Below, piece after piece: positions 13,505 through 38,694 of a DNA stretch of 64,000 bases. The position numbers and the translations under genes are program-made. How positions within the stretch are numbered: position 1 is the stretch's first letter; every line of letters starts with the position of its first letter. The notes beneath the pieces were generated by a model that made no database searches, was not told the origin of the DNA, and saw only the letters and a program-made list of their open reading frames with translations. Source of the DNA: Thunnus maccoyii (Eukaryota > Chordata > Actinopteri > Scombriformes > Scombridae); assembly GCF_910596095.1 (NCBI RefSeq), contig NC_056548.1:5915151-5979150 (forward strand). The letters are read 5' to 3'.

Positions 13505-14285
13505 AAAACAAAATAAAATAACCACTCCTCCCAGCAGGAAATCAGCTAATATGAAGACAATGTCAGCGTGAGTGAATGAAGTGAAATGAAATGGAAATTC
13601 AGTCTATCAGGCTACACTAGACAGGAATGAGAACACATTTATGAACATTTATAAATGTAAATGCATAAAATCTGTATGACAAGTACAAAGCAGCACTTAA
13701 AAGAGCTTTATTTCTGCCTTAAAGTGCAATGTTGTATTACATGAGAGATGGTTATCGCCTGATTTATCATTTTCTTTTTTTTAATATGAGTCATGGACTC
13801 CCAGGCAGCTGTCACACTCTGAACATCGTCTCACCCCGGGCCGTACCTCATTAGCATGGCAGACACCTCCTTTTAGATACAGGGAGCAAGCCAGCCTAAA
13901 CCACTTCACAGAGAGCCAATCTCTCGCTCCTGTTTCGCCACAGTGGCCCGTCACCTGCTGCCAAGAAGCCTTTCATGGGGATTTTTCCTGCTCCACTGAT
14001 GCAAGGAAGGAGAACCTCCCATGGGGTGCGGCTACCCAATTTTCATGGTGGAGGACATCTCCTTTACAGAAGAGCCTTGCTGCAGAAAAGTGCTCATCTT
14101 CACAAAAAGACACTTGGAATGGACAAGATTTCACAATGCTACATGTCCCTCTGGGGGGAAATGGACCTATTAGTTTGTTTAAAACACTTTTTTGAAATCA
14201 TTTTAAGAGTTGTTGCACATCATAGATATTGCAGTCCTTTGTGGGTCATTTGGAAGAAATGACCCACAAAGGACAAATCCTTTAC
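13505..14285 (+). repeat. Tandem duplication, unit 1, left part
   Basis: From ACTCCTCCCAGCAGGAAATC onward this matches 15,366-16,080 closely and in the same order: the TGTCAGCGTGAGTGAATGAA block, the TCATGGACTCCCAGGCAGC block, the CATGGGGTGCGGCTACCC block and the CAGTCCTTTGTGGGTC block. The unit is interrupted at about 14,290 by an insertion and continues at about 15,108. Short frames in both copies (13,975-14,262 and 15,771-15,953) share a frame only because the DNA is duplicated; nothing suggests a protein. Confidence 0.85.
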
Positions 14286-14304
14286 TTAAAGGAAAACTTA
14301 CTAT

Positions 14305-15360: not shown

Positions 15361-16350
15361 AGTCTCTCACTCCTCCCAACAAAAAATTGGCTAATACGAA
15401 GACAATGTCAGCGTGAGTGAATGAAGTGAAATGAAATGGAAATTCAGTCTATCGGGCTACATTTGACAGGAAGGAAGATACATTTATGAACATTTATAAA
15501 TGTAAATGCACTAAATATGTATGACAAGTACAAAGCAGCACTTAAAAGCTTTATTTCTGCCTTAAAGTGCAATGTTATACATGAGAGATGGTTATCGGCT
15601 GATTTATCTTTTTTTTTTTTTTTTTTTTTTTTATGAGTCATGGACTCCCAGGCAGCTGTCACACTCTGAACATCGTCTCACCCCGGGCCGTATCTCATTA
15701 GCATAGCAGACACCTCCTTTTAGATACAAGGAGCAAGCCAGCCTAAACCGCTTCACAGAGAGCCAATCTCTTGCTCCTGTTTGGCCACAGTGGCCCTTCA
15801 CCTGCTGCCAAGAACCCCTTCATAGGGATTCTTCCTGCTCCACTGATGCACAGAGGGAGAACCTCCCATGGGGTGCGGCTACCCAATTTTCATGGTGGAG
15901 GACATCTTTACAGAAGAGCCTTGCTACATAAACGTGCTCATCTTTACACTTGAAATGGACAAGTTTTCACAATGCTACATGTCCCTCTGGGTGGAAGTTT
16001 GTTTAAAACACTTTTTTGAAAATCATCATCGTAGCTCTTCCACATCATAGATATTGCAGTCCTTTGTGGGTCGTTTGGAAGAAGTACTCAAATCCTTCAC
16101 TTAAAGGCCCTGAAAACTATGAGTCATGTGGGCCTACATGAACACTCAATAATTTTAAGCCAAATGGTTATTTCAACAGAGATTTTCTGTCTCTGGGTCT
16201 GAGTTAGAAAAGGGTGATGTCACATACTTCTGAACATCAATCCGTAAAACTTTATCTACAAACTAAGTAACCGTACCTGTTAGCCAAATAAAAAGTACAA
16301 TATTTCCCTGTAATGTTGTGGAAGGCAAGCAAAAAGTCTCCCAAATTGGA
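15361..16350 (+). repeat. Tandem duplication, unit 2 (uninterrupted)
   Basis: An about 1-kb direct copy of unit 1. It starts at the ACTCCTCCCAAC block and runs to GGCAAGCAAAAAGTCTCCCA. Small differences include a 20-plus T run at about 15,610 and loss of short segments near 15,910 and 15,990. Without the insertion, unit 1 would have nearly the same length. Confidence 0.85.
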
Positions 16351-26699: not shown

Positions 26700-27688
26700 C
26701 TAAAGTGTACCCCCAAAGCTCTCTGAGTGTACAGACACTGTCTCTTGGTCATCTAGGGCTTCCACCTGAGAAAATAAGAAATGTAAATGGTCAATTTAAT
26801 CCATGATCAGTAACTACTGACACGCCAGGATATATGACAGATCACTTTCACTGTTACCTCTGTATGGGACAGTGGCATGTAAGTGGTTGGTGGCAGCAAC
26901 AATGTCTCTCCATCAACTGCAGAGAAAGCAAATACACATACTCCCACAGTAATTATCATATTATATAATCATGCTTTATTAGCAACCCAGTATTTAAACA
27001 TTGACTAATTGAAACATACCCCATACAAATTGTCCTTGTTTGAAGCTGCCAGTTTCACCGGGGTCTGATGATACACCCCCTTCCACCTCTTCCATCAAGG
27101 AGTGACCCTGATTATTGGAGAGGGCCAGCTGCTCAGCAGGAGTGTACTCCTGTAGAGGAGGGCCCCTCCAGTGTTCCTTGCTTCATTTTTTTCCCCCCCT
27201 TTTGGCTGCAAGCAGTTTCAAAGCCATTTCATTGTTCTAGAGGCCTTTTTATACCAATATCATATCATCCTAAAACAGAGAGTGATTAAAGCACTAAAGC
27301 CTTGTACTTGTTGACCTTATAAGATTCACAAGTAAGTCTACTTACTTTGAATTATGTTTTCATATTTATTTCTTATTCTTAACAGGGTTGCAGCTGAAAG
27401 AATAAGGCTTAACTGTTTTACACAACCTAAGAATACATCTAAGCAACACATTAATTTAATGGAATACACAATTGTAATTATAGTCCGATCTACTCTTGAC
27501 TTAATGATGGGGAAGTGATATTGATAAGCCTATTAACTTATGCATTCACACAGTCTGTAATTTTTTGCCAGCTTTCCTCCCTGCCTTTGGCAGCAGCAAC
27601 TGTGTTGCTTTTAGCCTGCATTATTAATTCTTAATATTATAGTTTGCTCATCTTGCGTAAAATATGCAGCTGTTGTAGACTTGTCCAT
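26700..27688 (-). pseudogene. Harbinger Myb/SANT-type DNA-binding partner protein
   Basis: Read on the reverse strand. A start at 27,688 opens MDKSTTAAYFTQDEQTIILR and, after a stop and frame slip, SNTVAAAKGREESWQKITDC: the Myb/SANT trihelix-like domain of Harbinger second genes. After an intron, 27,020-27,269 holds a basic GGKKNEARNTGG motif, STPAEQLALSNN and MEEVEGGVSSDPGETGS. Then come a 59-nt exon (26,858-26,916, DGETLLLPPTTYMPLSHTE) and a last exon (26,700-26,765) ending SESFGGTL-stop. The last two introns have proper GT-AG ends and agreeing phases (1, then 0). In the family this protein binds the transposase and the element ends. N-terminal decay makes it a pseudogene; its C-terminal half is intact. 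Confidence 0.75.
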
Positions 27689-27959
27689 GTTTGCAATTGG
27701 TCATATGGTGCAAACACTACCACTTTTTATTTAAATGCACTCATAGCCAGATAAGGAAAACCTGGGTTGAGTTTTGAATATGTTATTACAAGGAAAGATA
27801 AATGGGTCCCTCCTAAATCTTGATTTGTAAGTCTAAACAATTTTATTTACTAGGTGTAAGGCAAAATTGGTGTGGCATACCTTGTGTGATGTGGAAAGTC
27901 TGCTTGGTCTGGGCTCAGGCTCAATGTTTTTTCCCCCCTTGGGGCTCAACTGAGGAAGG

Positions 27960-30343
27960 ACCAGCATCTAAGAGGTGCTGTGGCACATGGCCCTCATGAG
28001 GGCCGGGTTGGAGATGTCTCTGGGCTTAGGAAAAAGGGAAAGAGCGAGTTTTGAGGGCATCCTCAGAGCAGAAGCAGAACCCAGCACCTACACCAACCCC
28101 AAAATCATAAAAAGTAAAAAAGTTGTCACATGAACTTTCCTTTAAAGTGTTGAAAACGAGGATGTGATGAGTGTGGTGGTGACATGAGGCACCCCACACT
28201 CCTCCCAGACCTTTGTCACCAGCTCCCTGATTTTGTTAAACCCCCCCACCAGCACAGTTAATTAAAAAAACAAACAAACATAGAATGTCCTGGTGGCAGC
28301 CTGGCAGGAGGTGGCACGGACAGGAAAATTCCAGGAGCTTCCAGCTTGGCCCTACTGTACATGGCTGCAGTCTTGTGGAATTTTGCATTACTTTGGACAT
28401 AAAAAGATGTGCGATATTACAGCTAAGGTGGAATAAAGAAACATTAATGTACAAAAGTAATATGTAAAAATACACTTGATGCTTGGTTAAGTTGACATTT
28501 ACTTACATTGCTGATGTATTCATCATTCATGCGGTCGCAGTAGAGGACCCCTTTCCTGTGGCATGTGACTGCATTAATGTTGCCAGCAAGGAGACCCACA
28601 TGTCTCCTTGTGAGTGACACCCTTGAGGGGTGTTTCCTGAGTTTTTCTCAAAGACAAATTAGAAAAAAAGGTAATTGCCTCTAAACATATGCATTATCCA
28701 AATCTAACCTAAATGTGGAAAAGACCTTTTAGTTACTTACCAAGACTCTTTGGAATCTGCTAGATCACCCACGCCTTGAAGGTGCAAATCTGAGTCGGTA
28801 ACAGAAGGTTCTCTGTAAAATTATTCAATCAATCACAAAGAATCATAAGTTTTACACAATCAGATAATTACCATTTTAAAAAGCCAAGTTACACATAAAC
28901 TGTGAAAAGAATGAAAGTATCATAGAAAACTTTCTCTTTACTGCTCTTCTTCGAATGCAACTCTAGGCGGTGGGTGACTATTTCTTTGGACAGGTTGGAG
29001 AGCTCAGTCTTCATCACAGTGTCCAGGGAGAGCATGTGTGCCTGGGAGAGATGAACCAGAGGAAGAAAAAGACACATCCAAAAAGGTATTTTAACACCTG
29101 TTCTAGAAAGAGCTTGATCCTGACAAAGATAATCCCACACACAGAAAGTAGCTTCCAATAAGACAATAGTACCTGTGGGATGTTCTCTTCCCTGAGGAAA
29201 GCGAGGAACCTCCTTACATCCAACAGGTAATGTTTGCAGGTAGAGGCCAATTTGTCCCTCCTCAGCTGCCTTACACAGCTAAAACAAAGAACAAACATGA
29301 ATGAATGTCACAGTGATGGAAACCGTTACTAAACAATAACACCAAAACCAAAAAGCTTACCCTACTATTTTAACATGTTGGTCCACAAATCTCAAGTGCA
29401 GGGGGGGGGGTGTTGTGTCTTGCCCCCCACATGTACAAAAGGAACACCCTGACGTGGGTTAGGTTCAAAATCTGCTTGATGTTCGACTCAACCCTTTTTG
29501 TAGGATTAGAGCCCAACTGCAGTGCTTTTGAATGTCTTGGGGAGCTTGTCTAGAAACAATAAACAAACAGGAAAATTGTTAGGAAAATGTCAGGGCAACA
29601 CAGTAATTAGAAGACTTGACAATTCGGTGATGAACTAAGGCTCTTGTGGTCCCCTTTGTCATTTTTTCTGTGTGTCCAGGTGGGTGAGCTTTCCTCATCT
29701 TCTGTCCTCTTGCTTTTTTTTGGCCTTATTCCCAGAACCTTCTGCGTGCCTCCTCTTGTAGTGCTTTCAGTTGGCTGTAAAGCTTGGAGACCTTTTCCAC
29801 AAGCATATCCACTTTATGTGGATGCACGTCCCTTTTTGTTTGTCCGAATTTCTGCCAATTTAACACAAATTTCCTATTGTTTTGCCTCTTTGACCAGGTT
29901 CTTATTTTCATCTTTTTGTTAACGCAGAACATTAAGTGAAAGAATTTTACATGGGATTAGAATATATTATACATTAGAGACAACTTTGTTATCATTTTGC
30001 AGTTTGCTACTAAGCCAGCAAAATGCAGTTTGCATCTACCAATGGTATTGCTACTAGTGCAGTCATAGTACAATTCACAAAAGTGCAAAAGTATACTGTG
30101 ATGTTGTGTATGGTGTTCAAATGCCTGTTTTAACATTTGCTTTCAGTATCTCTTGACTGGGCAGGCAAGTGGTCCTCCATATCTAAACAAACATTGTCAT
30201 AAATTTGAGGAACATGTTCTGCACAGTACAGTAACTTCACCAACCTCTGTAGTGTCTGAAAATCTTTTACGTACCTTCAGGAAGTCCCAGAGGTGCTCTG
30301 AGACAATCATGTAATGAACCTTGCACAGGGGACACCTATTCAT
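27960..30343 (-). pseudogene. Tyrosine-recombinase-like gene with N-terminal Zn motif, multi-exon
   Basis: A first exon (30,275-30,343) starts ATG and encodes MNRCPLCKVHYMIVSEHLWD, with CxxC and a nearby His. Later exons with GT-AG ends lie at about 29,350-29,549 (frameshifted at a C10 run), 29,173-29,278 (STCKHYLLDVRRFLAFLREE, like the helical core-binding domain), 28,942-29,041, 28,741-28,810 and 28,507-28,636 (phases agree; contains TCHRKGVLYC, likely the box-I Arg). A downstream open piece at about 28,160-28,420 has HKTAAMYSRAKLEAPGIF and IRELVTKVWEECGVPHVTTT. A last piece ends NPALMRAMCHSTS then TAG (27,968-27,970), where a catalytic Tyr should follow. Such proteins are frequent in fish and cut and rejoin DNA through a 3'-phosphotyrosine. 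Truncation before the Tyr and frameshifts argue that it is dead. Family assignment is by motif only. Confidence 0.55.
29726..29932 (-). other. Basic, possibly coiled-coil open segment inside the recombinase-like gene
   Basis: This open segment is rich in K/R and then heptad-like: KVDMLVEKVSKLYSQLKALQ followed by EEARRR. It lies in the same orientation between the first and second recognised exons of the recombinase-like gene. It may be an extra exon of that gene, but it has no clear acceptor or donor in the right phase. It could equally be chance. Confidence 0.25.
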
Positions 30344-31116
30344 TTTGACTGTTGCCTGTGCACAAAATTAATAAGCAACAACAAACTTGAATGAATAATT
30401 AACTCAATACCAAAAATGCAAGACATATGTAATAACTATTATGCTAATAACTATTATAAGATTTTTAAATTCCTTATGAAAGCAGCATCAAAAGAATGAA
30501 TGAATCTAATGAATTCAGGAACCCTTTAAAGCTGGTTTGTCAACCTTTTCTAAAGCTGTCATCTTTAGTTTCTATTTTAACTATTACTTTTACTTTTATT
30601 CAAATAAAAATTATAATAAAGTAATGAATCAATTAAAAAACTTACCAAAAGTCCATCTGTGTGATTCTGTCCTGTAAGTGTGCTTGTGTTGTCTGTTTGG
30701 TGGTTCAGTTAAGACTGCTCTCTCACACTTACCTGCAGGGGTATGTTTTATACTGGTGCCAATTTTGGGGGTGTTAATCCTGTTCCGTGCACCAGAATTA
30801 TGCGGTATTGAGGGCAAACTTCGTGAATACCTTGTGAACACGTTATTAAAACCTTCTAAACCTTTTAAAGCTGGTTTCAAAAGTTAAAGTCTGATTTTAA
30901 TGTTAACTACTGAAAATAAGTAATCAAGCATTATCTGTTTGGTCACAACATGAATGATAAACAGAAATGATACTCATTTTTCTAGGAGTCAAATAATGGG
31001 AACATGTACTTACCAATAGTTTAACTTTGTGAATAAAGTTTTTGTTGTTCTTGTATTTTTACCCCTGAGTGGCCTGTAAAGACTTTGCCCCATCAAAGAC
31101 AGATGGCACTAATAGG
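30344..31116. other. Region between the recombinase-like gene and the Ginger-like element
   Basis: A strong minus-strand donor (CCTGCAG/GTAAGTGTGAG) at 30,732/30,733 and an acceptor (TGTGCACAG) just before the 30,343 start codon could delimit a 5' non-coding exon and intron of the recombinase-like gene. The rest is AT-rich and featureless. Confidence 0.3.
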
Positions 31117-31159
31117 TGCAATGGTATGGTTATTAGTTTTACAGGTAAGTTTACAGCTT

Positions 31160-31415
31160 TACAGGTAGACATTTATCTCTCTCACCACAATATTCTACAG
31201 TATCCAGCACAGTCTTTCATCCAAATTAGACACGACTGTCAACTCTCATTTTGCAAATGGGGACAGAAATTACACACAGGTATAAAAACTCAAATTAGTA
31301 GGAGTGGTGTACTCTATACTAGACAAGTCTGGTTAACATGTCACAACTTTGTGGGTTTTTGAGTAGGTTGGACAGTGATTAGACAGTGCTAATCCTGTGA
31401 CAGTCACATTTGTAA
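31160..31415 (+). repeat. Left terminal inverted repeat of the Ginger-like element
   Basis: Aligned blocks with the right end, read inward, include ATTTATCTCTCTCACCACAA, ACTCTCATTTTGCAAATGGG, GACAGAAATT, ACATGTCACAACTTTGTGG and TTAGACAGTG. The opposite end has ATTTATCTCTCTCATCACAA, ACTCTCATTTTGCAAATAGG, GACAGAAATT, ACATGTCACAACTTTGTGG and TTAGACAGTG. Weaker similarity extends out to about 31,117. Confidence 0.85.
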
Positions 31416-31733
31416 ACGCTTCACAATAATACAATGAATGATTTTAAAATGTGAGCAAACTGTGTTTTTTATTGTAGCTACAATGTAATGCTATACAATA
31501 TAATATATAGCTTTACAATATGTTGTAGTAATACTGGCTGACTTTTCTATCTTACATCATTTAGACTCACCAAAATCAAATACTTTACAGCAAAGGCAAC
31601 ACGCCAGCTCTGGCTCTCACAGTGGACAAATTCAAGTTCAATATGCAGTGTAAGCTCTGTCTTCTTACATAGTAGCTAGATTGACCCATTACTGTGACTG
31701 AAGGAAAGACAACAAAGATTTGTAATCTAGGAT

Positions 31734-31739
31734 TTTATT
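31734..31739 (-). promoter_or_regulatory. AATAAA poly(A) signal overlapping the PHD gene stop
   Basis: On the reverse strand the sequence reads TGCCAATAAAATCC. The TAA stop of the PHD exon lies inside an AATAAA hexamer, so the transcript could be polyadenylated with almost no 3' untranslated region. A GT-rich downstream element was not obvious. Confidence 0.45.
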
Positions 31740-33656
31740 GGCATGCTTTGCAAAAATAGTCTTTCTCTGTGGAGGGATGGTCCATACAGACAGTGTGGTA
31801 CCACAGAGTGCAGGTGGTGCACTCAATCTGAAAGGGGAAAAAGAAAAAAACCCTTTAGATAACTGTCAAACATTTTGTCAGGTTCAGGTCTCTCATGCAG
31901 AGAACGATGTACAATAAAGCACTTTAGACATTACTACTTTATTACTTAAGATTGTGTGACAATGTGTGTCAGATTCTGGGTTTAAATCTTAGCCGTGGTT
32001 CTTTCTGTGTGGAGTCAGTGTGTTCCTGTGTTTCTCCAGGTGCACCAGTGTCCTCAGAAGGTGCAAAGACATGCAAGTTAGGTGAATTGAACTATACATT
32101 TTCAATAGCTGTGTGATTGGGAGAGTTCATCCAGTGATGTTGAGGTGACATAAGGTAAGGTGGATCCTAGTTTTCCATCCAAACATCTGGAGTTGAATTA
32201 ATCTTCTTACCCATTCATCAATGTCACACCCTGGGTTCTCCTTCTCACAAGCGCGACACAGCTGGGATAGGTCATCTGTACAAATACAGGCATTAATGTA
32301 GTATAATGCAAATAGAGACACAACATTTAAGTAGACCTGGTAGAGTACTGCATACCTGTATCATTCAGCAAGGACATCACTATGTCCAGCTGCAACCTGG
32401 CCACACCTTCCTGGTCCAGGAAGGTACTAGACAGGGTCCTGCTGCAAGATTTTATGTATAATTATGACAACTTGTCACAGAGATAATCACATTATTACCT
32501 TGCACACAAACACGCCACATGACGTTGTGTCCTGCTGTTTTGGATGTGCAATTGTGGAGCAAACCCACTTCCCAATGGCTGGACATTGTCTGCAGACCAG
32601 TGCTCTACACAGATAACACAGATTGATTGAGTTTACCAGTTTTAACTTCAGCCCATGTAAGATCCTTTTTCAATTCAAGATCAGTTGAATGTTGTTTAAA
32701 GGACTTCACAAATACAGGCTTATGTTAGTCCAGGTCAACAGTAATCACAAGGAAGATGATCTAATGTGCTTTGTTGCTCCCTCAATATTATCCAAACTGC
32801 ATGAATACATGAGTCTGTCTGATGCACACATTAAAGCTGATACTTCACTCACCTTGTTACATCTTTGCAGTGATTGAGCTGCTGTTCAGTGGCTTCAAAT
32901 GGGTCCACAAGCAAGGACCTCATCTCTTTAAGATACGTGATCTATGGAAATGCAATTAAAAATTAGAGCCAACCCTGTCATACACACAGATGGTCCCATT
33001 GTTGCATCTGAATCTGTTAACATTTAAGATTACTTACAATGAGTGTACAGTGTCCGTTGTGACATATTACACCAGCTGCCACATCATATTTAAAAAGGTC
33101 CAACTTAAAAAAAAAAAAAACATTCATAATATAGACACATCTCAATTTGAGATATCACTATATTGGAAGGGTAAAACTTCCTACTCACCCTTCTAAAACC
33201 TTTTAGCAAGCCCTGCCAGACTGCAGTCATAGCATCGATAATGCATTCAGTCTGAGTACAAGAGTGACTTGTAATCCACTGTTTTTCTAACAATCTAAAA
33301 GAGAAATATCAGACCAATATTTTTTTTTTTTTTTTAAAGAAAGTACTTCACTCTCCAACTACTTTCCTGGGGCCAGGTCCATCTGATTCTCTGAATAAAC
33401 TTTGTATGGCCCAATCCTTGACCACAGAGTCTCCTTTTTCCTCCCTGCCCATATGTCTCTGATTACTGTATAAACATCAGTGTCAGTTATTTGTGAAATA
33501 CATGATTAAGGGTGTACTTACTGGAAGTTTATTTTCAAATTTCTGCATCATTTGAGGGTTCTGGGGCCTTGTGGCACATGGATGGCCTTGCACATGTTGG
33601 CCCGTCAGAAGATGTGGTGCATGTTTGTGTGGTGTGTATTGTTGTGGAAATTTTCT
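31735..33656 (-). pseudogene. Ulp1/SENP-type (C48) cysteine protease with C-terminal PHD finger, 8 exons
   Basis: Exons, read leftward: 33,522-33,656 (Pro/Gln-rich linker), 33,363-33,465 (SRIGPYKVYSENQMDLAPGK), 33,189-33,294 (IIDAMTAVWQG), 33,038-33,103 (HNGHCTLI, catalytic His), 32,853-32,941 (LLVDPFEATEQQ, catalytic Asp), 32,499-32,604 (HPKQQDTTSCGVFVCK, oxyanion Gln and catalytic Cys), 32,356-32,438 (1-nt frameshift), 32,211-32,275 and 31,735-31,827, which together form a PHD finger (CRAC, CDIDEW, CTTC, WYHTVC, CKAC) with all eight ligands. Most junctions have GT-AG ends and agreeing phases. Ulp1 enzymes cleave SUMO-type modifiers; PHD fingers read histone tails. In Ginger-type elements the protease follows the integrase, as here, so it may be the same polyprotein. 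The usual Trp after the catalytic His is Cys. Confidence 0.8.
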
Positions 33657-34280
33657 CTCGAGAAAGAAGGCACATGTAGACATAAAGAAAGCATTAAACA
33701 TTGTTACTTGTTGAAGCAGTTGTAAACACTGTACAATCCATCACATCATCAGTAACAATTATACAAATGTCCAAACACAAACAAAAATACAATCATCTTG
33801 TATTTTTGGAGAGAAAGCATGTTGTTCAGCTGGCCCTTTCTCTAAAGATTGTGAACTCAAACTTGACAGCTTTATACCTCTCCAGAAGCAAAGCTAAAAA
33901 CAGTCTGGTCCCTAAATGGACACTTCCACAAACTATTACACCTTCTTACAAACAAGTATGGTCTCTAAAACAGTAGCCTTAAGACAAAGATATCTCTAGC
34001 TAACCCCAGAGGTCAGCAAGCAACCCTCAGATAGAAACAGGTTCAAGAGTTCAACTAGCCTAGGAGTAGGATTTCTTCACCAACATGTGTCCCCAAAATG
34101 ACAATGACATTACATCACATTCAGTTGATAACAAACATTGACTCCTTAGTTTGAAAACATTTGTAACATATATACAAAAGATTTATAAAATGATAACCTA
34201 CTATTCAATTTTCTTTCACAGTATGTGTGTCTGTCTGTCTGTGGAGTGGTTTGTGTTAGGCCAGCTAGAGGTGAAGGATC
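33657..34280. other. Non-coding gap between integrase and protease exons
   Basis: AT-rich, no domain motif seen on either strand; probably an intron if integrase and protease belong to one transcript. The 91-codon + frame at 33,701-33,976 has no signature. Confidence 0.4.
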
Positions 34281-34284
34281 CAAC

Positions 34285-36282
34285 TTTTTTTTTTTCCAAA
34301 AAAATTTGGCAGGGATTCTCTCCTCTGGCTGGAAATAATGTGTCAAGTGTTTATTTTGATTGTCCTTTTCCCCTTTTCTGACACCAGATCAGTGCTTTTC
34401 TCCTTCAGTTTGGTTATTTTGAAGGGTCCCAGCATGTCCACTTCCAACTTCTTCCCTTTTCTCTTCTCCTGTCTAATGTGAAAGACAAGATCCCCCACTT
34501 CAGAATTGTCCTCCTGGTCCCTTTCTTCTTTTATTTACTTTGTCTTCACTTTTTTTAATGTGTCCCTTGATCTCTGTGAAGGTTGTGCTCTGCTTTTTTT
34601 TTTAGCCTTTCAGAGATCTCCTCTTTGCACATCAGGTTGCTGACTTTGTCTTCCGTTACCTGCCACAGATCAGTTTTAATGAAGAGGACATAGGTGGAGT
34701 AGACTGACTGTTGATTCAAATTTAAAAAAGATAAAAAAGGATGAAAATTGAGAATCTTACTTTGTAGTCCTTTGGCACCTCTTAGGAACACCTTGCCTCC
34801 GTCCCAAACATCAAATAATAGAGGCTGTATTTTGTTGTTGTCCCGCCTTTTGGGATGATCAGCCACCACTTAAGTAAAGGCATGAGGAGGCAGGAGAGAA
34901 TTTGGGTTGTCTGGTACGATAAAGCAACCTCTTTTTTTAAGGAAAGTATCATTACTGATTACATGTTCGGATAACAAAAGGAAATCTGTACATGTTTTTC
35001 TATGAGAGCTAGAATCCATTCAAGTATTAAAACGAAAAAACACCTCTGTACTTTTCCATTCAATTTCTCCACAAAGCCATTGGTCTGTTGATGGTAGGGG
35101 GAGCACAGGCTTCTTTTGATGCCCAGACTCTCACACAAGCTGTAGTTGACCTTGAAATGATTAGCTGGACAAAAGTGAAATAAGTCAGCACAGCAACAGT
35201 TGGGGACTGGGGATCCATAATGAATTATTACCATATCTGAGAGAGCCCTGGTCTGTTAGCAGTCTTTGAGGTGCACCAAATTTGTAAAGAAATCAAGAAT
35301 ACAATTGGTCACCTCATCTGCTGTTTGCTTTTAAATTGGTAGGGTTAGGCCCATTTAGTGAAATAGTCAACCATGACACATATGTACTAGTTGTCACCAT
35401 CTGTTTGCATGAATTTACCCACCAGAGAAAAAAAAGACATGAGCACTACAGTATATCACTCTTGCAGTTGTTTCCATTACCTGTATTGGATTATACTCCC
35501 TCTTTTCTTTAATATTGGCTCTCTTGGAGTGGCATGGTGGACACTGAGCAATCTGAAAAGACAAACATCATTTCAAACTTATGACAAATATGATATTCAA
35601 ACCTAATAGTAGGCTTTTGAGCATGCAGTATCAGCAGGCATTATCTGCACACTTTCCCAGGACAGCTGCAGAACATTAGTTCAGTGTGACATTCACAGAC
35701 AGGCTTTTTACATTTGCAAAAAATACACATTACACTCCTCTGTGCTCCATTCAATCAAATCAAGTTTTAATGTCACGTACACAATCATACACAGTACAGC
35801 GTGTAGTGAAATTCTTAAGTGCCCGGCTCGAACGAGGCAGAACAAACAAGACTAACAAATAGATTCATCTTTATTTTATTTATCTAACAATAGAATAGAA
35901 AATTAATCTGGCAAATAGATAAATAATAAAAATGAATGATAAAACAATGAACAATATGATCAGTAATGATTTTCAATGTCGAGTTTCAGAAAAAGGGATG
36001 ACAGGAATGTATGGCAGGTGGATGAACTATAAGTTATCAATAATAAATTATGTGTAAAGTCCTCTCTGCGGTCGCTGAATGTGTATTAGATACCGACTCA
36101 CCCAGTTGTAAATGTCCTACTCCATGCCGGGCCAATAGTACCAGATGATAATAGCACTCTGGGTTTTCTTCACTCCACAATGTCCACCAAAATGACTGCA
36201 ATGAAACTCCTCAAAGATGGAGTTTGCATCTTCTGCACTCGACACAACTTTTGCCAGGTGCTCCGACCTGTTTCTCTTGCGC
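34285..36282 (-). pseudogene. Gypsy-type integrase (Ginger transposase), multi-exon, inactivated
   Basis: Reading leftward: exon 36,102-36,282 has FEEFHCSHFGGHCGVKKTQ (the two His of the H2C2 zinc site) and WYYWPGME; a TAG at 36,117-36,119 interrupts it. Exon 35,481-35,552 supplies the Cys pair (CPPCHSK). The piece at 35,232 to about 35,445 has VMVDYFTKW (first Asp) and LLTDQGS (second Asp), with stops at 35,387-35,389 and 35,345-35,347. The piece to 35,164 has KRSLCSPYHQQTNGFVEKLN, whose Glu completes DDE. Then come TTTKYSLYYLMFGTEARCS (about 34,761-34,870) and a GPY/F module (LGPFKI near 34,430) closing with EERIPAKF (34,290-34,315). These enzymes join donor DNA ends to target DNA in the nucleus. 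No start codon was identified. Confidence 0.8.
35755..36060. repeat. Dispersed repeat inserted in an integrase intron
   Basis: The text CAAATCAAGTTTTAATGTCA, TACACAGTACAGCGTGTAGT and GTGCCCGGCTCGAACGAGGC marks a short interspersed repeat widespread in ray-finned fishes, followed by an AT-rich tail. It separates the two halves of the H2C2 zinc site and lies between a donor at 36,101 and an acceptor at 35,553. Confidence 0.5.
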
Positions 36283-36499
36283 CTGCAGATGTATTACAGG
36301 CCTCCATCTGGTGTTTCAATGTCATAATATTAGATTTATTGGGAGTTGTACAACAACAGCTGATCATTGTTTTGTAAAGTCCACATGGCATGCATCCTTA
36401 CCCTTTATCCTGAAGATGTCGGCTTTTCTCTTAATTACATAGACACACAACAATCCTACAATAACAGCCTTTCTCAGAAACACACAAGTCCATCTCAAT

Positions 36500-36590
36500 T
36501 ACTCACCCACTATCACTCATAAGGACAATCACTCAGTCACAATCAGTGCTCAGTCACACACTATCACTCACTATCACTCAGTATAACTAT
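36500..36590. repeat. Minisatellite of CACTATCACTCA-type units
   Basis: Several degenerate copies of an ACTATCACTC/AATCACTCAG unit in a row sit at the inner edge of the right inverted repeat of the Ginger-like element. Not present at the inner edge of the left repeat. Confidence 0.65.
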
Positions 36591-36856
36591 GTCCCACTGT
36601 CTCTTATCACTGTCTAATTGCTGTTTAATCGCTTTCTATCAAAACTCCTTACAAAACCACAAAGTTGTGACATGTCAATCGAACTTACATAGATTCCACC
36701 CCCTCCATGCTTTTAGTTTCTACACTTGTGCGTAGTTATCCAATTTCTGTCCCTATTTGCAAAATGAGAGTAAACAGTCATGTCTGATCTGGATGAGTGA
36801 GCATGCCGAATAGTGTATGAACATCATTGTGATGAGAGAGATAAATACCTGTAGCC
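36585..36856 (-). repeat. Right terminal inverted repeat of the Ginger-like element
   Basis: Inverted partner of 31,160-31,415. Similarity is clear over about 260 bp with scattered substitutions and small indels, so the ends have diverged considerably since insertion. Weaker similarity (TGCAATGTTAT against TGCAATGGTAT) continues out to about 36,894. Confidence 0.85.
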
Positions 36857-36894
36857 TTCAATATAAAACATGATCAGTAGTAGATAACATTGCA

Positions 36895-38694
36895 GCTACA
36901 ACAGCTAGCAGCTAACTCCACACTATGTTCCAGCTGAACACATACATACCTCACACTGTGTTTCACTTATAGGTTGTATGAAAGTATAAACAGTTCTCAA
37001 GTCGACTTTACATTGGATTAATGACGAAATATAAGACTGACAATAAGAACATTTTGTAAATTACTTAACGCTACTGTTGTTTGCAGTGTTTTGAACAGGC
37101 TTCAACACAGTCACCTACCACAGCCTCATGCAGGGGAATATCACCAGTTAATTCACCACCAGTTAAACTGTGACACCAGTCAGCACTGAGCTGCTGCTGT
37201 GAGTGGAGCTGATGACGCAGCTGTGTGTTCCGGACGAACCGCACCAGCTATCAGCCTCGCACAGTCCCGGCTTCGACATCCCATTCTGAATTTCATCATA
37301 TCACAAATAACATAACCCTCCTGTCTAAAATGAGCCTGCACACAACCGTGTTCTCCCGTTACAGCAGTGAAGTCTGTCTCTCTACCAGCATGAAAACTAG
37401 CTGCTGCTTTTCCTGCTAGGAAAGTGGATTTCAGGTCCTGACAGGCTGGAATTTGTGCAGCCTGCACAGACACAATTATTCACGATGATGAAAAATTATA
37501 AAATGCAAAACAAAACTGGCTCAGACTCATAAGTACTTAGTACCACACGTTGTACTGCAGCTGTGACAGGGGGAGCGACTCCCTTCTGTTGCATAATATG
37601 ACGTGTTGTTGAATAAAAAAGGTAATTTTAAGGACACTGCTCAAAATGCTAACTTTTCCATCTTAATTTCTGCATTTATGTCTCGTTAAACTAATAAAAT
37701 CATACATGAACCTTTTACAGGATCATTTTCATGATGCATAAACTGTAAATCCAGTAAAAATTTCAACCTGCAAGTTGTTCTTTAAACTGACAGCTGGGCT
37801 GCAAGTAAATACCTCAGTTTAGCGGTTAGCTCACCTGCTAACTGGTAGTATTACTTCTGTAATGCCACAAGCTAGCGTGATGTCAGCTCAGGTGTACTAT
37901 GTTGGTGTCCTTTTTTTTAAACTGTCGACTTCCTGCTAGTTATCCAAAACGACACACTAACGCTTCTAAACAACATCAACTGTTTGCTTTTCAGCTGTGA
38001 AATTAATTTGGTTGTACTGTTTGGTTTTTGTCAGTAATATCCATTTTAAACAAGGCCAAATAGACTCTCAATACTTTTTAATGCAGTTGTGCACACCTGC
38101 TCTTATTTATTTATGGAATTGTTTGTGTTGTCACATGTCATTTTATGTGAGTTTTTCATGGGTGTATGTTTTTATGTTTATGAGCCCTTAATCTAGCCAA
38201 ATTTCTATCATTATGTGATAAACAATAAAGTTTTCTGAGTCTTGAGTACAGTTCAGTAACTTGCAAAATAGTCTTAAAAACTAACATGAAGAATCGTGAT
38301 AAGTTGATCGTGATCCTGCCTGGAAAAAAACATGATATATTTTTGCCCATCCCTACATACATGTTTGAGATATATCCCGATACATCATTTAAAAACTTTC
38401 AGTATACATTCAGTATGTTTGTATGTATGTTTAGTCAAAAGTAGATATAGTATATTTCATACCAGTGTTTTATAGGTTAGTGGTTGCCTGCTGCTCACTC
38501 TGTGTGTTAAAACACTTATTGATCAGTTTGATGGTTATAATAACTTCTAAGTAACCTGACACACCAGATGGTCTGTTACAGAATTAGCTGCAGGCCTAAC
38601 CATTAATGCAGTATCTGATAATTATGAAGCTGCTCTTAACTGCATAAAGCGTGTGATTTGTTAATTGTCACTAAATGGGGCCATTGAAACCCTT
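36895..38694. other. Non-coding DNA right of the Ginger-like element
   Basis: About 37,180-37,430 is relatively CpG-containing and of mixed composition (GATGACGCAGCTGTGTGTTC, TTCCGGACGAACCGCACC), unlike its AT-rich surroundings, and could be a promoter or an old exon; no frame is convincing. Nothing else recognisable. Confidence 0.35.

Follow-up and report, generated by a model that had tools for sequence, protein, structure and literature searches.

The element lying within the window (the whole stretch of 64,000 nucleotides of Thunnus maccoyii DNA analysed here) is a minus-strand copy, dead and rearranged, from a Ginger1 family with many members, an assignment to which we give a probability of about 0.92. 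Its coding blocks follow the order H2C2 zinc finger, integrase core, GPF motif, Ulp1/C48 blocks and PHD finger, and no fewer than four in-frame stops plus three frameshifts, counted by eye, interrupt them; this copy is dead. The first-pass annotation had proposed a Ginger-type DNA transposon, which was borne out by the domains, the CCGG-type flanks and the grouping of the integrase apart from Gypsy-like ones. At the family level we observed the order of the domains, the terminal sequences, many of which have CCGG-type flanks, a single non-autonomous copy with both ends and near-matching flanks, and the clustering apart from Gypsy-like integrases. The copy in the window is an ordinary but clear addition to Ginger1, with its ends corrected (Table 1). 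Its kind is already known, and what is unusual here is the number of introns, if the exon reading holds.

Table 1. Features of the window element (window positions) and further loci with integrase and Ulp1/PHD
Feature	Position	Strand	Remarks
Flanking CTGG, read as decayed CCGG target	37176..37179	-	precedes TGTCACAG
5' terminus, beginning TGTCACAGTTTAACTGGTGGTGAATTAACTGG	37138..37175	-	inverse match to C4 copy 3' end
5' subterminal segment, inside the family, outside the element as drawn earlier	36854..37137	-
Right arm of inverted repeat, subterminal not terminal	36621..36853	-
H2C2 zinc-binding exon, one in-frame TAG	36102..36239	-	PF17921, E 1.2e-10 straight through, 3.4e-16 joined
Second exon (IAQCPPCHSK...), completes H2C2	35481..35552	-	preceded by GT-AG intron
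Integrase core piece, second catalytic Asp (TDQG), two frameshifts, 5' limit uncertain	35232..35432	-	motifs by eye
Integrase core piece with catalytic Glu (NGFVEKLN)	35044..35164	-	by eye
Integrase C-terminal exon (TKYSLYYLMFG...)	34761..34930	-
Exon(s) with GPY/F-type motif (LGPFKI)	34343..34659	-	by eye, Pfam support weak
Nested 581-bp insertion, TGTGAAAG...CACAACA, TG...CA ends, between 4-bp ATAC repeats	33640..34220	-	foreign to transposon
Ulp1/C48 protease blocks	32356..33103	-	PF02902 (Peptidase_C48), E 3.2e-5 joined; introns
PHD finger, two exons (32275-32211, 31827-31735), ends in TAA	31735..32275	-	PF00628, E 5.9e-6 joined
3' part common to other copies	31384..31734	-	alignments to C19, C8b, C1
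Left arm, inverted copy of 5' subterminal segment	31160..31386	+	matches 5' regions of other copies
Integrase + Ulp1/PHD loci	C21:23601-23603k, C8:34211-34213k, C19:3156-3160k, C12:25580-25583k
Integrase + Ulp1/PHD loci	C12:25545-25549k, C1:4663-4666k, C6:32270-32274k, C12:1305-1307k

Coding blocks and predicted exons

The minus-strand coding blocks claimed at first sight for an integrase, a C48 protease and a PHD finger were recovered by Pfam as H2C2, rve (E 1.7e-9 for the integrase core), Peptidase_C48 and PHD in hand-joined blocks, E-values that are flattered because the blocks were selected by eye, the support for C48 depending on this joining. In straight-through scanning, H2C2 alone stood above the cut-off, and the PHD finger fell below it (E 4.2e-4, 20.7 bits against 24). 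Better evidence than the E-values is that these blocks recur at other loci.

The H2C2 and DDE core of Ginger1 are represented by the Pfam H2C2 and rve matches, without the first catalytic Asp, which has been lost in the window, as it reads SLVGK where sister copies have DLVGK; the motif GMDLVGK was present in six of the nine sister loci scanned. Downstream of the core, LGPFKI corresponds by eye to the GPY/F motif of Ginger1, and Pfam gave SH3_Tf2-1 at E 0.018 and nothing else in this region. Upstream of H2C2, the C19 copy reads YPAG...NFRI...DLYYLCRR (by eye), which may be compared with the YPYY motif of Ginger1; that motif was not made out in the window, and an expression search returned one unrelated match. 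The C48 and PHD domains agree with the C-terminal Ulp1 or OTU (PHD in one family) of Ginger1. The catalytic set His, Asp, Gln and Cys of C48 can be pointed to by eye, and the protease matched SENP1 weakly (E 0.08); the PHD finger matched KMT2D (E 4.3e-5) and KDM5B (E 1e-3).

Eleven donor-acceptor pairs were first proposed by eye and ten were kept, the acceptor proposed for the second intron (35400) having been rejected as the exon begins further upstream in sister copies. The mean donor score was reached by none of 20000 random draws of 11 GTs among the 398 of the region, the donors having been hand-picked by eye and the score weights being general background values. Among the matches listed, several copies are broken at about the same query residues, 49 and 122, which is what shared introns would give. 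With about ten predicted GT-AG introns, compared with 0–4 across the 16 families of the 2010 Ginger1 table (PMC2836005), the family would be unusually intron-rich, if the exon reading holds.

Termini and target site

Imperfect inverted repeats do exist in the window, 31160-31386 aligning with 36853-36621 at 71.2% identity over 243 columns (E 3e-31), with a local score of 108.5 compared with 18.5 for the best of 100 shuffles. Their interpretation as 260-bp TIRs that terminate a Ginger at 31117 and 36894 was not borne out and is very improbable: although the repeat is real, Ginger1 TIRs of up to 270 bp are known (PMC2836005) and one alignment each begins at 36895 (C8 copy) and 36886 (C21 copy), homology with other copies passes 36894 and continues to 37167 (C21b) and 37177 (C15), and those copies that have a 3' end possess a different, common tail. 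Nor did a 4-bp duplication emerge at 31117/36894, where the sole equal flank of 4 or 5 bp nearby is TGCA, with 0.285 expected for random pairs of places.

Positions 37167-36672 align unbroken to C21:23598884-23599431 (C21b; 71.8% over 554), and 37177-36708 to the C15 copy (64.4% over 517). The family extends to 37175, with TGTCACAGTTTAACTGG directly after CTGG, the boundary reading CTGG/TGTCACAGTTTAACTGGTGGTGAATTAACTGG. When the C4 copy is turned round, its 3' end matches the stretch 37140-37176 (94.7% over 38), and a close pattern of the terminus was found at two places in the genome compared with none in the reversed control. From these alignments we place the true 5' end of the window copy at 37175, starting with TGT and flanked by CTGG. 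A THAP domain seen by eye further upstream (37250-37479) was rejected, Pfam giving nothing there at E 1, and lies outside this 5' end.

At the opposite side, 31845-31413 aligns to C19, 31592-31413 to C8b and 31493-31384 to C1, and a 3' tail is shared by the C19, C8b, C4 and short C8 copies. No genuine 3' end was found beyond approximately 31384, since on the minus strand of 27000-31420 the tails of five copies (C1 being the fifth) scored no better than the best of 40 shuffles; a candidate terminus at about 31011 was rejected, with six errors in 20 letters and as one of more than 100 such matches in the window. Because the left arm is 5'-like (74.9% over 239 with C21:4991984-4992216) and no tail match was found, the 3' end of the window copy appears to have been replaced by, or to adjoin, an inverted 5' fragment. 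As separate observations, the 5' regions of C8a (L014), C21a (L021, L057), C21b (L055, L015) and C19 (L009) contain two subterminal units with a piece similar to 35584-35508 between them, to be read either as partial copies in tandem or as a duplication of the 5' part, and window positions 13523-14292 and 15368-16107 form a direct repeat (about 770 bp, 87% identity).

Searching the genome for TGTYACAGTTTAACTGGTGTT, two mismatches being allowed, returned 17 places compared with eight in the reversed control, ten of them homologous to the window (itself included) and seven without homology. The ten homologous ends are flanked by CCGG (three), CCAG (two), CTGG (the window) and, once each, TCAG, ATGG, GAGG and AGGG, so that six of the ten have CCGG, CCAG or CTGG and four have no CCGG-like flank; none of the seven non-homologous matches has any of these three, and one has ACGG. 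The C21b end (C21:23598876) is flanked by CCAG, and the more distant copies L044 and L045, with ends TGTTACAAATCAACTGG, by CCTG and ACGC. A non-autonomous copy of 782 bp (L064, C8:7254471-7255252) has both ends, facing each other, with flanks CCAG and CCGG. The family as a whole accords with the 4-bp target duplication of Ginger1 (CCGG or CCGT/ACGG); the window copy has CTGG at one end only, and a duplication cannot be shown for it because its 3' end was not found. Termini of the form TGTNR were seen in eight of the ten homologous ends, including the window (TGTCA), in a search whose pattern itself favoured TGT; exceptions are TGTTT (C6) and TATTA (C1), and also TGTGT of C21b.

Sister copies and relation to retrotransposons and host genes

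In the genome searched (782 Mb, 54 contigs) we found the further copies that the first-pass annotation had suggested looking for: many and dispersed, with integrase followed by Ulp1 and/or PHD on the same strand and in the same order at no fewer than eight places besides the window (Table 1). Another locus, C24:10192k, has both parts in unclear order and was left out of this count. Other places among the matches listed have one of the two parts alone, and no Ulp1 or PHD match was obtained at several places with a Ginger-like integrase, C8:1057k, C21:4990k and C23:438k among them. Ginger Ulp1 blocks at three places (L045, L046 and L047; C12:25583842, 25602681 and 25621464) follow one another at intervals of about 18.8 kb, an arrangement suggestive of a tandem segmental duplication that includes a Ginger copy.

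Identity to the 161-residue integrase query was 51–80% for ten Ginger-like loci, 25–43% for 17 Gypsy-like loci (labelled by identity and open-frame length alone, not by RT content) and 42–48% for three candidates. The integrase stood apart from the Gypsy-like rows: in a FastTree tree of 28 rows of this same genome, the window, nine of the ten Ginger-like loci and candidate L097 were placed together with support of 0.999 and the 17 Gypsy-like rows outside, a result that is partly circular because the Ginger-like rows were chosen by similarity to the window. Rows with fewer than 70 columns were left out (L025 with 59, L095 and L096 with 61 each), and L019/L020 and L028/L029 are near-identical. 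The loci L095 and L096 (C1:39066049 and C1:37838794) hold stop-free integrase-like frames of 142 residues, with 46–48% identity over a short stretch, and are possible host genes.

These results bear on the reading of the element as the remnant of a Gypsy retrotransposon next to host Ulp1 and PHD exons, which we consider very unlikely. The integrase does resemble those of Ty3 and PFV, and an LTR-like sequence lies inside; yet the integrase keeps the same company in the same order elsewhere, the tree sets it apart, no RT was seen and the LTR-like piece is missing from three sister copies. We interpret that piece, the nested insertion of Table 1, as most probably a solo LTR. It recurs at 38 or more other places with 90–99% identity, has matching 4-bp flanks in five of six further copies inspected by eye (L003 unclear) and is missing from the C19, C21a and C21b copies. 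Six read-through frames of 30601-38400 contained no RT, RNase H or gag families at E 0.05, scans that a badly decayed RT could escape, as C48 and PHD were missed there and H2C2 alone appeared. The longest block-free stretch is about 1.0–1.2 kb (34343 to 33300 or 33103), 581 bp of it being the later insertion. The earlier statement that RT, gag and LTRs are absent stands in these scans for RT and gag, and is amended for LTRs by this one insertion; of the Gypsy hallmarks (RT/RNase H, gag, direct LTRs) we found none, the sole LTR-like piece having arrived later. The attributes of Ginger2/Tdd, an AT-rich target (RTATAY) and no GPY/F, were likewise not found, the flanks being CCGG-type and GPF being present by eye.

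Pfam at E 0.001 gave nothing in 44 of the 68 open frames of at least 88 residues in the window, Rfam gave no match and no tRNAs were found. Phages yielded no near match to the element, and collections of viral contigs and genome contigs yielded two and 24 pattern matches, respectively, none of which was confirmed as a relative.

A domesticated GIN2-like host gene, or a pseudogene thereof, would explain a multi-exon integrase, GIN2 having eight coding exons and being present in fish according to the available part of PMC3424704, but stops and frameshifts in the blocks, many dispersed copies and TGT ends with CCGG-type flanks make it hardly credible.

Proposed activity and known Ginger elements

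Returning to the Ginger1 reading, the intact family would have encoded a spliced transposase with H2C2, DDE core, GPY/F, Ulp1 protease and PHD, which would recognise the short TGTYACAGTTTAACTGG ends and insert into CCGG with duplication of 4 bp, presumably through cut-and-paste by the integrase, which we infer, as we do the way of excision. Most likely, the protease would act at the integration complex, stripping SUMO or a related tag from the transposase or from proteins of the host, while the PHD finger would tether this complex to chromatin; the roles proposed before, targeting for the PHD and SUMO-related host defence for the protease, are speculation. The window copy would have lost its 3' end, an inverted 5' fragment standing in its place, and later received the solo-LTR-like insertion. 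For a Ginger1 family that carries Ulp1 and PHD, the termini and the target are hereby fixed in a large eukaryote genome, and the company of integrase and Ulp1/PHD is seen at several loci. A decayed copy can also mimic terminal repeats, as the false pair presented here illustrates.

We regard it as a tentative and rather doubtful possibility that the family is an undescribed intron-rich Ginger1 lineage, in which the integrase, a SUMO-type protease and a PHD reader are combined in one transposase spliced from about 11 exons, and whose insertion into CCGG (CpG-bearing) could be chromatin-steered. A literature search for Ginger with a PHD finger returned no on-subject titles, and the lineage may already be in print.

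The vertebrate genes GIN1 and GIN2 are similar in being multi-exon integrase genes derived from Ginger1, as given in the available parts of PMC2836005 and PMC3424704; they are host genes, GIN2 being syntenic (neighbours OGFOD2 and ABCB9), whereas the window family consists of decayed copies that are scattered through the genome and bear the ends of a transposon. Teleost Ginger has been annotated, with 6053 copies in zebrafish and 236 in a second species in the available part of PMC4746887, and shares fish hosts with the window family, beside which it is set by copy counts alone and not by architecture. Ginger1 relics are recorded in frog, coelacanth, turtle and alligator in the accessible text of PMC9004415.

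Ginger1 itself was defined in PMC2836005, the available part of which lists Ginger1-9_HM with Ulp1 and PHD. The association of Ulp1 and PHD with the integrase was correctly recognised at first reading, and was overstated as a combination, Ginger1-9_HM being already in print. This element from Hydra (Bao, Kapitonov and Jurka 2010, PMC2836005, Table 1) measures 3,758 bp, with a TIR of 120 bp and 2 introns. It resembles the window family in integrase, Ulp1 and PHD, in the TGTNR ends of Ginger1 and in the CCGG target, and the window family differs from it in having about ten predicted introns, a recognisable TIR of about 38 bp and another host.
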